Below, one piece after another: positions 3,001 to 6,167 of a stretch of 64,000 nucleotides of DNA; within the stretch, counting starts at the first letter, position 1, and each line of letters starts with the position of its first letter. The translations under genes and the position numbers were made by a program. The DNA is from Paraprevotella sp. GTDB lineage: Bacteria; Bacteroidota; Bacteroidia; Bacteroidales; Bacteroidaceae. The notes under the pieces are model-generated. The model saw only the letters and a list, made by a program, of their open reading frames with translations, had not been told where the DNA came from and made no database searches. The stretch is taken from positions 1 to 64,000 of the forward strand of contig JAGBCQ010000018.1 in the NCBI GenBank assembly GCA_017937925.1, given 5' to 3'.

Positions 3001-5283
3001 TTCTTCGACCCCGGTTTTTCAGTCATCGATGCCGACATACTATATAACCCCTACGACGGCCTTTACCACATGTACTACAAGAGAGAGGCCGCCAATGGTA
3101 GCGACCGTGGAGTTTATGAAGCCACCTCCCCGACGTTGGTCGGCGGAAGTTGGACCGACATCACCCATGTGACGAACGAAGGAACGGCACAAGTAGAAGG
3201 TTCGAGCCATATCCGTCGCATCAATGAAGACACTTACAACCTCTACTATATGCGATATTCCGAAGGTTACAACTATAAAGTGTGCGAGACGGACCATTTG
3301 GGTTTGAACACGACCTCCTCGGTAAATCTTCAAGGCACGGGGAATTTCCAACACGGTTCGTTCATGACTTTGACCGAGTCGGAGTACAAAGTATTGGAGT
3401 ATTGGGACAAGTTGACAATGTCGTTGCCTTCCTACAAGGCTAAATTGGAGGGTGGTAATGAAGGTTATGCCGCTCCCATCAGTCAGGCGGAGGCGGCTTT
3501 GGAATTGACAACGATAGAGGAGTTGGCGGTGGAATTGCCCAAGGCATACGAGGCTTTGTTAGAAATGGACGAAACATATAGAGATGCGATGATGGAGGGT
3601 GCATCTGAGGAGAATCCGGTTGATATCACCTCATTTGTCATCAATGCCGATTTCTCACAAGGTAGCACCGGGTGGCAAGGCACATCCTTTACAGCAGCTA
3701 ATGGTTATGTCGCAGAACAATGGAACAAGACGTTCGACAATTATCAGGTATTAAGGAATATGCCGGCGGGCCGTTACGTGCTTTCTTGTCAAGGATTCTA
3801 TCGTCAAGGAACCATCAATGTCTCCCTACAAGCTCATGAGAATGGTTCGGAACGAATGTTGCCACATATATATATAGGTGAGGCAGCATCACCCTTTATG
3901 TGTGTCTATGATGAAGAAGAATGGTTTACGTTCAATCCTTATAATTTCCCAAACAATGTTTCGGAAGCCGACATCGCGTTTAATACGTATGAGGTTTATA
4001 AGAACAACACGGTGGAATTTATACTTACGGAGCGAGGCGACTTGCGTTTAGGAATGAGAAAAACTGAGGCTTTTGCTGAGGATTGGACTATCTTTGACAA
4101 CTTCAAGCTAGTGTATTACGGACCGGTTCAATCGGATATAATAGAGGACGGTACGTATTACATGAAAAATGTGGGAGCCAACCTCTTTTTGACCGGTGGA
4201 AACAATTGGGGAACAAGGGGGTCTTTTGCTACTAATGGATTCGACGCAATCATTACATCTCTACCTTCCGGAAAATATACAATTGATACGAGAATATATT
4301 TGGATGATAGCAAACATTATCTCGGTACAGACGGTTATACGGATGCATCGCCGGCAGAGTGGATAATTGAACCGTTAGGTGATGGTACTTATGCAATTAC
4401 TTCAGATGGTACGAATTACATTGGTTATGATGGCAGTACGTCAGTGTTGAATTTAGAGTTGACCGATATTACAAGTGAAAATGCCCAGTGGCAGTTCTTA
4501 AATAGGGAAGATTTGTTGGCTGAAATCAGTACGGCAACCAAAAATACACCAAAGGATGCTACTATACTTTTACCCGGTGCAGCATTTAACAGAGGCGATT
4601 CAAGAGTTGGTTTTTGGAATGACGGTCCTGCCGTAGGCGGTTATCAGGAAGAAGTAGGTGCCAACTATTGTGGTGAGAAGTGGAATACAGCAACTTTTGA
4701 TGTGGCGCAGACCCTGACCGACTTGCCAAACGGCTACTACAAAGTCAACATGCAAGGTTTCTACCGCATGGGTGGTGATGACACCAAGAACAATGCAGCA
4801 ATTGCAGATGAGAATCATGCTGCGAGAACAGAAACCCTGAATGCCGTTTTTTATGCCAACAACGAGGAGAAACCGTTGATGTCCATCATAGAAGGCGCAC
4901 AAGCCGAAGAGTTTGTTTATGGTCAAAGTTTTGAGACTTCATACGGCTTTGTGCCTCAAGATATGTCAGCGGCGGCAGTGGCATTTACGGACGGGAAGTA
5001 CGAGCATAGCCTTTGGGTGGTGGTTACAGATGGTACTTTGCGTGTAGGTGTGAAGAAAGATGCCGAATCAGCAAAAGATTGGACCATCTTCGACAATTTC
5101 CGCATGGTATATTACGGTACAGAAGAACCTGATGCAATAGAGGACATTACAGCAGTGGACGCTTCGCAAGCCAATGACGTTTACGACCTTAGCGGCAGAT
5201 TGCAAAGACGCCAGACCAAGAATCTTGACGGACTGAAATCCGGCATCTACATCATAAGCGGTAAAAAATATATGGTGAAGTAG
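1..5283 (+). CDS. Multidomain secreted GH51 arabinofuranosidase-GH43 fusion (5' truncated)
   Basis: The reading frame is open from base 1, so the N-terminus (signal peptide, start of a CBM-like domain) lies outside the window; 1760 codons are visible. Order: end of a beta-sandwich carbohydrate-binding domain (to about residue 100), a GH51 alpha-L-arabinofuranosidase barrel with acid/base Glu252 in GNEN and nucleophile Glu343 in VGEYAV, a LamG/DUF1080-like sandwich (about 440-640) inserted before the GH51 C-terminal beta domain (about 640-735), an atypical Ig-like domain, then a GH43 five-blade propeller (about 818-1130) keeping its three acids: Asp872 (TRDAF), Asp1010/1012 (VIDAD) and Glu1066 (VEGSS). 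The C-terminal third holds a helical linker, two galactose-binding-like sandwiches (about 1213-1377 and 1520-1715) flanking a trefoil-like segment, and a tail ending SGKKYMVK that resembles a type IX sorting domain. Family knowledge gives arabinose release from arabinan or arabinoxylan; the exact substrate is inferred. Third-position GC looks higher in the catalytic half than in the C-terminal third. Confidence 0.9.
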   Translation, partial: GDGVRNEGFWGINSVSGRTYKFSFWAKSESGYDGQLTVRLEKEDGTSLGESIVSAVLNDEWQKYSGELTATGNDATAWFSLTGSKAGVITIDMVSLFPPTYKNRENGCRIDLAEKLEAMHPAFVRFPGGCYVEGEWSDGKTNRFEWKNTIGPIEGRPGHRNVNWKYNVSDGLGFHEMLQLTEDLGAEPLFVVNMGMGHGWMEPYDQIDEYIKEALDAIEYCNGAVTTEWGAKRAANGHPEPFNLRLIEIGNENYNYTSDGNNDQSDHYAERYKQFYDAIKSKYPEMVMIGDVEAWGTDNPSWRNPHPVDAVDEHYYRTPAWFVSQYSKYDHRDRSLPKVYVGEYAVTQDFGTNGHLRAALGEAVYMLGMENNSDVCVMNSYAPIFVNENDQKWKPDMIRFNSSESFGTPSYHVQRLFPNNVGKQNVKWTETGNELDSGNQFGLSTWKTAATFDNVLITDGEGNIVYSDDFSADKGLWSGANGNWYISGGQLLQTNTRMEGSINLCSVEASTSTYTIELDATKTDGDEGFLIAFRYSDSNNYCWWNLGGWGNSRHGVELCANGTKTTVASASGSLTTGQTYHIKISVSGNAVKCYLDETLIHDFTLPTERKVYISSNIDDEAGILYLKMVNPTDESAPMNITIRNATVDGGSLILMSGDSEAENTMSNQQNVYPVESTLSGISGNTITYTAPAHSLNILKLDVSDVVKSENEGTPATSAQISAFKKEISNAMSKLNFLHTTAALPTTTSSGATMTWEQTGDNDGYVSLSSNGFSYTLTVNQLPESEEKVNAGSVSAHVTFSDGSIATVEYPVWVAPDDNRYGYLYCFMNSAKEITNFALGSKEDQGKKFNVLLGGGEVFDTESVAKIEGGTRDAFILRGEQEGQYLMACTDMCNAKSGIWNNYGMDLLRSTDLIHWESVTFDFREGKSIFSDATATTECYKTDEEYAKINRVWAPQIIWDASVNKYLVYYSLLSTNDGDSYDKIYYSYADEDFTTLTQPRMFFDPGFSVIDADILYNPYDGLYHMYYKREAANGSDRGVYEATSPTLVGGSWTDITHVTNEGTAQVEGSSHIRRINEDTYNLYYMRYSEGYNYKVCETDHLGLNTTSSVNLQGTGNFQHGSFMTLTESEYKVLEYWDKLTMSLPSYKAKLEGGNEGYAAPISQAEAALELTTIEELAVELPKAYEALLEMDETYRDAMMEGASEENPVDITSFVINADFSQGSTGWQGTSFTAANGYVAEQWNKTFDNYQVLRNMPAGRYVLSCQGFYRQGTINVSLQAHENGSERMLPHIYIGEAASPFMCVYDEEEWFTFNPYNFPNNVSEADIAFNTYEVYKNNTVEFILTERGDLRLGMRKTEAFAEDWTIFDNFKLVYYGPVQSDIIEDGTYYMKNVGANLFLTGGNNWGTRGSFATNGFDAIITSLPSGKYTIDTRIYLDDSKHYLGTDGYTDASPAEWIIEPLGDGTYAITSDGTNYIGYDGSTSVLNLELTDITSENAQWQFLNREDLLAEISTATKNTPKDATILLPGAAFNRGDSRVGFWNDGPAVGGYQEEVGANYCGEKWNTATFDVAQTLTDLPNGYYKVNMQGFYRMGGDDTKNNAAIADENHAARTETLNAVFYANNEEKPLMSIIEGAQAEEFVYGQSFETSYGFVPQDMSAAAVAFTDGKYEHSLWVVVTDGTLRVGVKKDAESAKDWTIFDNFRMVYYGTEEPDAIEDITAVDASQANDVYDLSGRLQRRQTKNLDGLKSGIYIISGKKYMVK

Positions 5284-5321
5284 GTCGTTCCCCGCAAAAG
5301 ACACAGTAATCTTTTTTATAA

Positions 5322-5367
5322 CCGAGCGCCGGCAAGCAGACATCCGCATCCGGCGCTCGGTTTGTTT
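5322..5367 (+). terminator. Rho-independent terminator of the GH51-GH43 gene
   Basis: Perfect 11-bp arms CCGAGCGCCGG (5322-5332) and CCGGCGCTCGG (5350-5360) are separated by 17 bases and followed by TTTGTTT. It lies 38 bases after the stop codon and before the next promoter. Confidence 0.85.
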
Positions 5368-5400
5368 CTATCCGTCAAGATAGCGACACGCTGTTTATAT

Positions 5401-5431
5401 TTTGACAACCGTTCGTTTTTTCTTATCTTTG
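5401..5431 (+). promoter_or_regulatory. Bacteroidetes-type promoter of the HU/winged-helix gene
   Basis: TTTG at 5401-5404, a 19-base spacer, and TATCTTTG at 5424-5431 match the TTTG-N19..21-TAnnTTTG pattern of Bacteroides sigma-ABfr promoters. Transcription would start near 5438, leaving a leader of about 140 bases that contains the repeat array. Confidence 0.8.
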
Positions 5432-5440
5432 CGTTTACGA

Positions 5441-5534
5441 TTGTCGTTACCCCATCGTGTCACATGCGTGATACGAACGTGTCACGTGTGTGACTCCATT
5501 GATGCACGTGCGTGACACGAACGAGTAACGACAA
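5441..5534 (+). repeat. Phased 22-bp operator-like array in the HU-like gene leader
   Basis: Three contiguous imperfect 22-bp units (5456-5477, 5478-5499, 5500-5521) each carry a dyad GTCAC-N4-GTGAC or a close variant. Half-sites begin at 5459, 5468, 5481, 5490, 5503 and 5512, i.e. alternating 9 and 13 bases. The array is flanked by a perfect 10-bp inverted repeat TTGTCGTTAC (5441-5450) and GTAACGACAA (5525-5534), whose GTTAC/GTAAC parts keep the same 13-base phase. The whole element therefore has dyad symmetry around 5487. It sits just downstream of the predicted transcription start, as a repressor site would. Confidence 0.75.
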
Positions 5535-5576
5535 GTCGGGACAGACTTTTTATCAAACTAATACCAAAGAAAAACT

Positions 5577-6167
5577 ATGAGTATCAATTATCAAATGTTT
5601 CCGCTAGTGAACCTCAAAAGCGGTGAAACAGAATTTCATGCAAAAGTAGTCAATGGCCAAACCATCGGAACAAAACAGTTGGCACACGAGATTGAGCATG
5701 CCACGTCGCTGACTAAGGCAGATGTCAAGGCCGCTTTAAATGCCCTTTCAGAGGCGATTAAAGAGCATTTAAAAGAAGGGGACAGTGTGCATATAGAAGG
5801 ATTAGGCTATTTCAAGCCGTCATTGAAATGTACTAAGAAAATGACGCGTGAGAAGGCCTCAGGCAAGTTTATCGAAGTGCGCAGCATTAACTTCCGTCCG
5901 GAACGTGAGATGGTGAATGAAATGAAGCATTGCACTATCGTTCGCAGCGCCTTACAGACACCTACCGCACAACTGACTGACGAGGAACTTGAAGCTTTGG
6001 TGTTGCATCATTTTGAGAGCAATACTTACCTGCGACGTGCCGATTTGCAGTCCATCGCGCATATTTCAAAAAAGACAGCATGTGTCCGTTTGCGCGAGTT
6101 AGTAGAAAAAGGCACATTACGCAGAGAGGGTCCGCGCAATGCGCCTGTTTATGTGATGAACGGGTAA
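5577..6167 (+). CDS. HU-like DNA-binding protein fused to a winged helix (HU-HIG type)
   Basis: This 196-residue protein has an N-terminal HU/IHF-like fold (about 1-125) with segments such as ADVKAALNALSEAIKEHLKEGDSVHIEGLGYF and an FRPE-type arm. A C-terminal winged-helix part follows (about 135-196: LRRADLQSIAHISKKT, then a wing near RREGPRNAPVYV). HU domains fused to wHTH are common in Bacteroidetes (HU-HIG family). It is expected to bind DNA as a dimer, either as a local chromatin protein or as a specific regulator. It stands alone between a terminator and the convergent cysS. The phased palindrome array in its leader makes autoregulation a reasonable inference, but nothing here identifies its targets. 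Confidence 0.8.
   Translation: MSINYQMFPLVNLKSGETEFHAKVVNGQTIGTKQLAHEIEHATSLTKADVKAALNALSEAIKEHLKEGDSVHIEGLGYFKPSLKCTKKMTREKASGKFIEVRSINFRPEREMVNEMKHCTIVRSALQTPTAQLTDEELEALVLHHFESNTYLRRADLQSIAHISKKTACVRLRELVEKGTLRREGPRNAPVYVMNG

Follow-up and report, generated by a model that had tools for sequence, protein, structure and literature searches.

Our analysis indicates that the 94-bp block at positions 5441–5534 of the window (the whole analysed stretch of 64,000 nucleotides of Paraprevotella sp.) is, judging from comparative sequence evidence, quite probably an operator array through which a sequence-specific HU-winged-helix (HU-wHTH) protein controls its own gene and, at the same time, a member of the dispersed site set of that protein. 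Arrays of this architecture are linked to HU-wHTH genes, with a defined position and phasing in the leader and a sequence specific to the paralogue; they are also dispersed, and in some cases retained at orthologous places. The first-pass annotation of this DNA had read the block as a helically phased operator of the HU-winged-helix protein encoded downstream; the block itself is real, and the interpretation is supported in part.

The array consists of TTGTC, four 18-bp modules (5446–5463, 5468–5485, 5490–5507 and 5512–5529, read from the sequence) separated by 4-bp spacers, and GACAA. A repeat scan gave direct repeats at spacings of 22 and 22, and three CAC-N4-GTG dyads (5461–5514, starting at 5461, 5483 and 5505) follow one another with a 22-bp period. 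The dyad symmetry that had been described for the whole block is borne out by a 45-nt inverted repeat, whose arms at 5441–5485 and 5490–5534 are 71% complementary; the half-site spacing alternates between 9 and 13 bases, as had been claimed, and the flanking 10-bp inverted repeat (TTGTCGTTAC and GTAACGACAA at the array ends) is perfect. The earlier description as three GTCAC-N4-GTGAC dyads holds exactly for the middle one (5481–5494) and not for the others, of which that at 5459–5472 has one mismatch and that at 5503–5516 (TGCAC...GTGAC) two; we prefer to describe the modules as imperfect 18-bp palindromes, GTKNNNCNNNNGNNNMAC. A lone GTCAC-N4-GTGAC dyad is not significant, with three matches (at most one mismatch) in the window against 1.01 expected. 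Two linked dyads are significant: 16 forward matches to CACNNNNGTGNNNCNNNNGNNNCACNNNNGTG were counted in this genome, and the reversed control pattern gives none in 295 genomes.

The block had also been placed just downstream of a promoter, and it begins 9 bp past the TATCTTTG element (5424–5431), of the TAnnTTTG form, of a forward-strand motif at 5401–5431, in which TTTG (5401–5404) is followed after 19 bp by TATCTTTG and which we take to be of the Bacteroidetes −33/−7 consensus type. Farther upstream, a forward-strand hairpin with 13-bp perfect arms followed by T-rich DNA (5320–5362) is likely to be the terminator of the preceding gene. The array ends 42 bp before the ATG of the forward-strand gene at 5577–6167, which encodes a 196-residue HU-HIG protein with a probable C-terminal winged helix, the putative array binder. 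The HU-HIG family (PF18291), in which an HU domain is fused to a wHTH, Ig or Gly-rich motif, was reportedly first described by Burroughs and colleagues in 2017. The product of 5577–6167 belongs to this family, matching PF18291 over residues 1–121 (E 4.2e-33) with 114.5 bits, above the gathering cut-off of 26.2, and it also matches HU-alpha chains over residues 33–105 (E 1.4e-6). Its C-terminal third gives weak matches only, to MarR_2 (E 0.0095) and to the MarR-type 3bpv (E 0.28, residues 132–194); in an alignment of 17 proteins (A4), all of which match HU-HIG, the best match to HTH_24 is E 7.6e-6 (2 of 17 members) and that to an IclR HTH 5.5e-6 (1 of 17). A protein search of one contig set returned no relatives, and another genome search was used.

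Conservation of the array upstream of orthologues, on which the operator reading had been made to depend, was found: arrays are usual in HU-wHTH leaders and lie at a narrow distance from the start codon. A leader was scored as array-bearing when the 200 bp next to the ATG gave 28 or more matches out of 44 at a 21–23 shift, or 25 or more palindromic pairs out of 40. By these thresholds, which were chosen after a first look at this very set, 57 of 65 HU-wHTH leaders carry an array (46 by both criteria); identical leaders and leaders shorter than 200 bp were left out of the set, and four loci without a usable ATG were dropped from the leader sets. Twenty-one of a further 30 HU-wHTH leaders pass, in a set that L279 entered via its array and in which L289, with a visible 21-bp repeat, misses by one match. 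So do five of six new HU-wHTH genes, three of the six coming from G256, a genome included for its arrays, and the other three (from G216 and G156) all passing. At these thresholds, 18 of 101 HU-wHTH leaders (8 of 65, 9 of 30 and 1 of 6) are without an array. As for controls, 6 of 650 Markov shuffles pass, together with 18 of 278 other genes, a figure inflated by the fact that these genes come mostly from loci picked for arrays or HU genes. Shorter HU-type genes (fewer than 185 codons) pass in one of eight cases and further shorter HU-HIG-type genes in four of 22, which makes 5 of 30 shorter genes in total. Four shorter HU-HIG genes with no winged helix detected (L327, L336, L337 and L348) nevertheless score as having leader arrays, with period 23 giving the best fit in two; the L337 match runs across an in-frame stop.

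The palindrome centre lies a median of 99 bp before the ATG (quartiles 92–117, 47 leaders), and the period is 22 in 44 leaders, 21 in eight and 23 in four, in agreement with the earlier argument that the repeat spans two helical turns. The motif TAnnTTTG occurs in 59 of 93 HU-wHTH leaders (one leader being included twice) versus 11 of 93 on the opposite strand of those stretches, and in 46 of the 59 it is situated 131–213 bp before the ATG. The nearest orthologue, with 51% identity, from the same genus and with different neighbours, also has a leader array; the same arrangement is seen in the named isolates Parabacteroides distasonis and Bacteroides finegoldii, and all five plasmid or phage records examined, the best 5 of 21 matching records, pass. 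One record labelled plasmid (L352, NZ_OY725757.1) has mutL, rpsL, rpsG and fusA beside the HU-wHTH gene and is therefore probably a piece of chromosome. Among 36 genomes, chosen to include four array-bearing genomes besides this one and two of the same family, full-length HU-wHTH genes were found in 3 of 3 with at least two CAC matches versus 3 of 33 others (Fisher p 0.0028); in G240, which has a single CAC match, the search at that threshold detected no more than the HU-HIG part. As to the genes that follow, a small lipoprotein-like gene comes directly after the HU-wHTH gene in one orthologue group (L202, L204, L207, L208 and L209), and a UmuC-like gene (named by eye) is next in L216 and L218.

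Array architecture and position are common across HU-wHTH leaders, and the sequence varies between paralogues; paralogues of one genome can have unrelated units, such as the CACGTACGTG, CCGACCATCGTCGGC and TGACAGCTGTCA types of the Phocaeicola group. On a tree of 66 proteins, the CAC label changes 12 times versus 20 when shuffled, none of 500 shuffles being as low, a clustering that is helped by near-copies among the proteins; with at least seven changes forced on the tree, the CAC type does not form one clade. Because array type clusters on the protein tree, the encoded protein is the natural candidate for the binder, and because array specificity varies by paralogue, it is most simply supplied by the paralogue itself. 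Paralogues with different array sequences also imply that several such systems can coexist in one cell.

Nine arrays were found in this genome by a dyad scan and by similarity and pattern searches, namely the leader copy, seven other four-module arrays and one two-module form of 50 bp (C13:103383–103432), and nine is a minimum, since the assembly is 2.06 Mb and 78.6% complete. The eight non-leader arrays, which the first-pass annotation did not foresee, mostly adjoin unrelated genes, and no HU-like match was found within 900 bp of them. Of the eight four-module copies, counting the leader, seven have a length of 94 bp and are bounded by TTGTC on one side and GACAA (GCCAA in one case) on the opposite side; when these seven are aligned, 39 of 42 skeleton positions are invariant versus 1 of 52 others, a comparison that is partly circular because these and related arrays had served to define the skeleton. 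The array at C5:83485–83574 (L297) has all the dyads, but ends in ATC/GAT, not TTGTC/GACAA. That on C22 (L052:1600–1790) has flanking DNA in common with window positions 5283–5560, as well as a similar end of a secreted-protein gene upstream, and is probably a segmental duplicate of the window leader without the HU gene. Z-DNA character of the spacers (alternating purine-pyrimidine) was considered and rejected, since it is constant in the aligned Paraprevotella copies, not in other species, and had been imposed by the search pattern.

Beyond this genome, the pattern CACRYRYGTGNNNCNNNNGNNNCACRYRYGTG was found in 2 of 18 genomes of the genus and in 58 stretches among 84,980 species genomes, 47 of them Bacteroidales by record title; the other 11 (Streptomyces, Gemmatimonadetes, Acidobacteria, Brevibacterium, Paraburkholderia, Pirellula and Polyangia) were set aside as probable chance matches, being lone or of low-complexity form. 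The strict pattern was not found in viral contigs. In a sample of 295 genomes from across the order, to which this one belongs, five have the pattern. A looser pattern was counted in 17 genomes chosen from pattern hits, of which the 16 besides this one were all picked for having arrays; the counts, from 1 to 152, are pattern matches, of which one array yields up to four. They amount to 152 in Phocaeicola oris, 35–83 in six Phocaeicola or Bacteroides caecigallinarum genomes (G063 and G065–G069), 43 in Bacteroidales AS27yjCOA_134, 32 in a Porphyromonadaceae and 1–16 in the other eight, and the reversed control gave none in all 17. With the leader array of L233 as query, a second array type gave 62 matches, in all six of G063 and G065–G069, the number of arrays being smaller since overlapping hits on both strands were counted. 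In five of the six Phocaeicola-type genomes, each of the two dispersed array types has an HU-wHTH gene with a matching leader. A matching leader was not found in two genomes with dispersed arrays: in G065, which has dispersed type-2 arrays, the two HU-wHTH leaders that were found belong to other types, and in G030, where dispersed CAC arrays occur, no CAC pair is present in the three HU-wHTH leaders read (L006, L289 and L290).

Palindromic, dispersed, intergenic sites with a consensus typical of the species recall REP/REPIN elements, which are spread by a RAYT (Y1) transposase. However, the Y1 transposase (PF01797), present in 6 of 28 genomes, was not found in this genome (G000) or its sister G007, both incomplete assemblies, nor in G062–G069, the eight with the highest array counts of the 17, and we consider such an origin extremely improbable.

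The placement of the dispersed copies is also informative. Gene context was read for 53 CAC arrays, from seven loci of this genome and from 46 Bacteroidales stretches (the 47 minus L165). The setting is convergent in 18, tandem in 18 and divergent in six, with ten at contig or locus edges and one in an ORF; 52 of the 53 are intergenic, the sole exception lying inside a probably spurious ORF. In a count made by hand on crude ORF calls, excluding the HU-related loci L114, L138, L139, L142, L144, L147, L149 and L157, the ten edge loci and the array in the probably spurious ORF, 45 of the 68 flanking gene ends are 3′ ends and 23 are 5′ ends (p 0.010), a bias that makes the arrays unlike a promoter set, a role on the next gene being possible in the tandem pairs. 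Twenty type-2 loci were returned, four of which are HU leaders; 11 of the 16 others fall into four groups with common flanking genes in two or three species, for example before aroC, beside mutL, and between serB-like and TspO-like genes (named by eye). Three orthologous pairs are present among 30 CAC-type loci, two between this genome and G007 and one between L113 and L127. By eye, dyads are retained in the arrays, and the adjoining intergenic DNA has diverged. At one orthologous place, the array is 50 bp long in G007 (C21:3421–3470) and 94 bp in this genome (C22:1649–1742), that is, two versus four modules, with a difference of exactly 44 bp.

The dyad symmetry over the full length of the block, together with a position between promoter motif and ATG that makes it probably transcribed, would also suit a long hairpin, of RNA or of single-stranded DNA, through which the 5′ UTR governs translation or termination. 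One long hairpin with mirror covariation of the spacers was at first thought likely and was given up on the counts in the larger sets: spacer complementarity in mirrored and non-mirrored positions is 1.91/2.07 in P. oris, 3.07/2.93 in the Phocaeicola group and 2.29/2.29 in AS27yjCOA_134, and compensatory pairing across the array was not found in these larger sets of dispersed arrays and the window copy. Two small sets do lean to mirror covariation, Porphyromonadaceae with 3.50/2.92 (six pairs) and Paraprevotella with 2.14/1.36 (seven). A hairpin would, moreover, have no need of a 21–23-bp period, many dispersed copies sit between convergent genes, and no Rfam match was found in the window at gathering thresholds, so that we regard the hairpin as very unlikely.

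In AS27yjCOA_134, units of up to ~0.9 kb composed of array, leader, HU-wHTH gene and 3′ region are dispersed, mostly in decayed form (L114, L138, L139, L140, L142, L143, L147 and L157), with a full copy at L144:5870–6778. Seven of nine units have a common right boundary, and a single internal deletion is common to L138, L142 and L157, which recalls non-autonomous derivatives of mobile elements. Most of the dispersed arrays read there lie beside remnants of the gene: seven have HU-like remnants, four of which are matches of only 20–23 residues. From these remnants and the common deletion, part of the dispersed set may be relics. That leader arrays are operators and the dispersed copies mainly functionless relics of dead gene copies would accord with the seven arrays and with an eighth locus that has the same deleted unit; in the other 72 of 82 array regions (some places counted twice), however, no HU-like match was found within 900 bp, the skeletons are intact while the filler has diverged, and dispersed copies are retained at orthologous positions. 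On balance, this explanation of the dispersed set is unlikely, if somewhat less so than the hairpin.

The same genome bears on the proposal that the array is a MITE or a minisatellite of the BrickBuilt type that happens to precede an HU-wHTH gene. Dispersal, TTGTC/GACAA-type ends in most copies of the present genome, the 50-bp and 94-bp forms at one orthologous place, and the common right boundary of seven copies and common internal deletion of three loci in AS27yjCOA_134 all fit a mobile element. Insertion would not be expected, however, to give placement before many HU-wHTH paralogues with unrelated arrays, and several dispersed positions are orthologous between species; on the latter ground, the idea that all arrays are mobile elements was dropped and kept for AS27yjCOA_134 only. 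BrickBuilt of P. gingivalis is likewise a short-period tandem repeat dispersed in a Bacteroidales genome, but the available portion of its description gives a 23-nt unit that differs in sequence, along with leader and tail segments and IS5-type GAGACC... ends, and a tie to an HU gene is not seen in that portion (PMC4596501); the present array has a 22-bp unit and TTGTC/GACAA ends. The MITE or minisatellite reading is considered very improbable and, like the RNA-hairpin and REP/RAYT readings, is not favoured.

Returning to the operator array of a sequence-specific HU-wHTH protein, we infer that the protein binds the array and regulates its own gene, and that the dispersed copies have a role. 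A dimer, made up of an HU body and two winged helices, would bind one 22-bp unit, and successive dimers could stack, for about four units, along a single face of the DNA, 22 bp being two helical turns. Bound just 3′ of the promoter, the leader copy would set the protein's own level, by occlusion or as a roadblock, with which the position of the array past the promoter motif fits. The dispersed copies, intergenic and often between convergent genes, would be bound in trans to form local nucleoprotein structures that may organise or insulate the chromosome; we favour such a local architectural role, the alternative being that they tune some neighbouring genes. Leader and dispersed arrays in many Bacteroidales suggest a self-regulating, sequence-specific system marking or organising the chromosome. 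More tentatively, and as a conjecture to which we give clearly less than an even chance, Bacteroidales may run several orthogonal sequence-specific chromatin systems, in which each HU-wHTH paralogue polymerises only on its own four-unit arrays, its own leader copy setting the level and the others linking or insulating conserved intergenic positions; this would be a bacterial analogue of dedicated architectural sites. HU proteins are textbook non-specific DNA architects. A large HU-fusion family with private, phased and partly position-conserved arrays would, if the present reading is true, provide specific nucleoid proteins for many Bacteroidales, and dozens of natural protein/operator pairs for testing the co-evolution of recognition.

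Autoregulatory arrays, nucleoid proteins and dispersed architectural sites are each of a kind already known. In the literature searched we found no case that combines an HU fusion with a multi-unit array of set length, an array sequence private to each paralogue and dispersed copies of conserved position, nor a report of operator arrays or dispersed sites for HU-HIG, in a search whose scope left subscription journals mostly outside and in which several queries were narrow. MatP/matS and Noc are chromosome organisers in which one protein is paired with dispersed specific sites; unlike theirs, the site described here comprises about four dimer-sized units arranged as an array, the leader of the protein's gene contains one copy, and there are several coexisting pairs of paralogous protein and array. 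Assembly on repeats has a parallel in BldC, in which, to our knowledge, an HU domain is not expected. BldC likewise forms cooperative multimers on direct repeats, but is a MerR-like regulator of Streptomyces, according to the part of its description at hand (PMC5859096). A further comparison is with the P. gingivalis protein PG0121, which the accessible part of its report presents as a plain HU of ~10 kDa with little binding preference (PMC3969353). It, too, is an HU-type protein of a member of the Bacteroidales and has been studied at a long inverted repeat that precedes genes; the P. gingivalis repeat is, in the same part of that report, a single imperfect palindrome whose arms of 77 bases lie before the capsule operon (PMC3969353).
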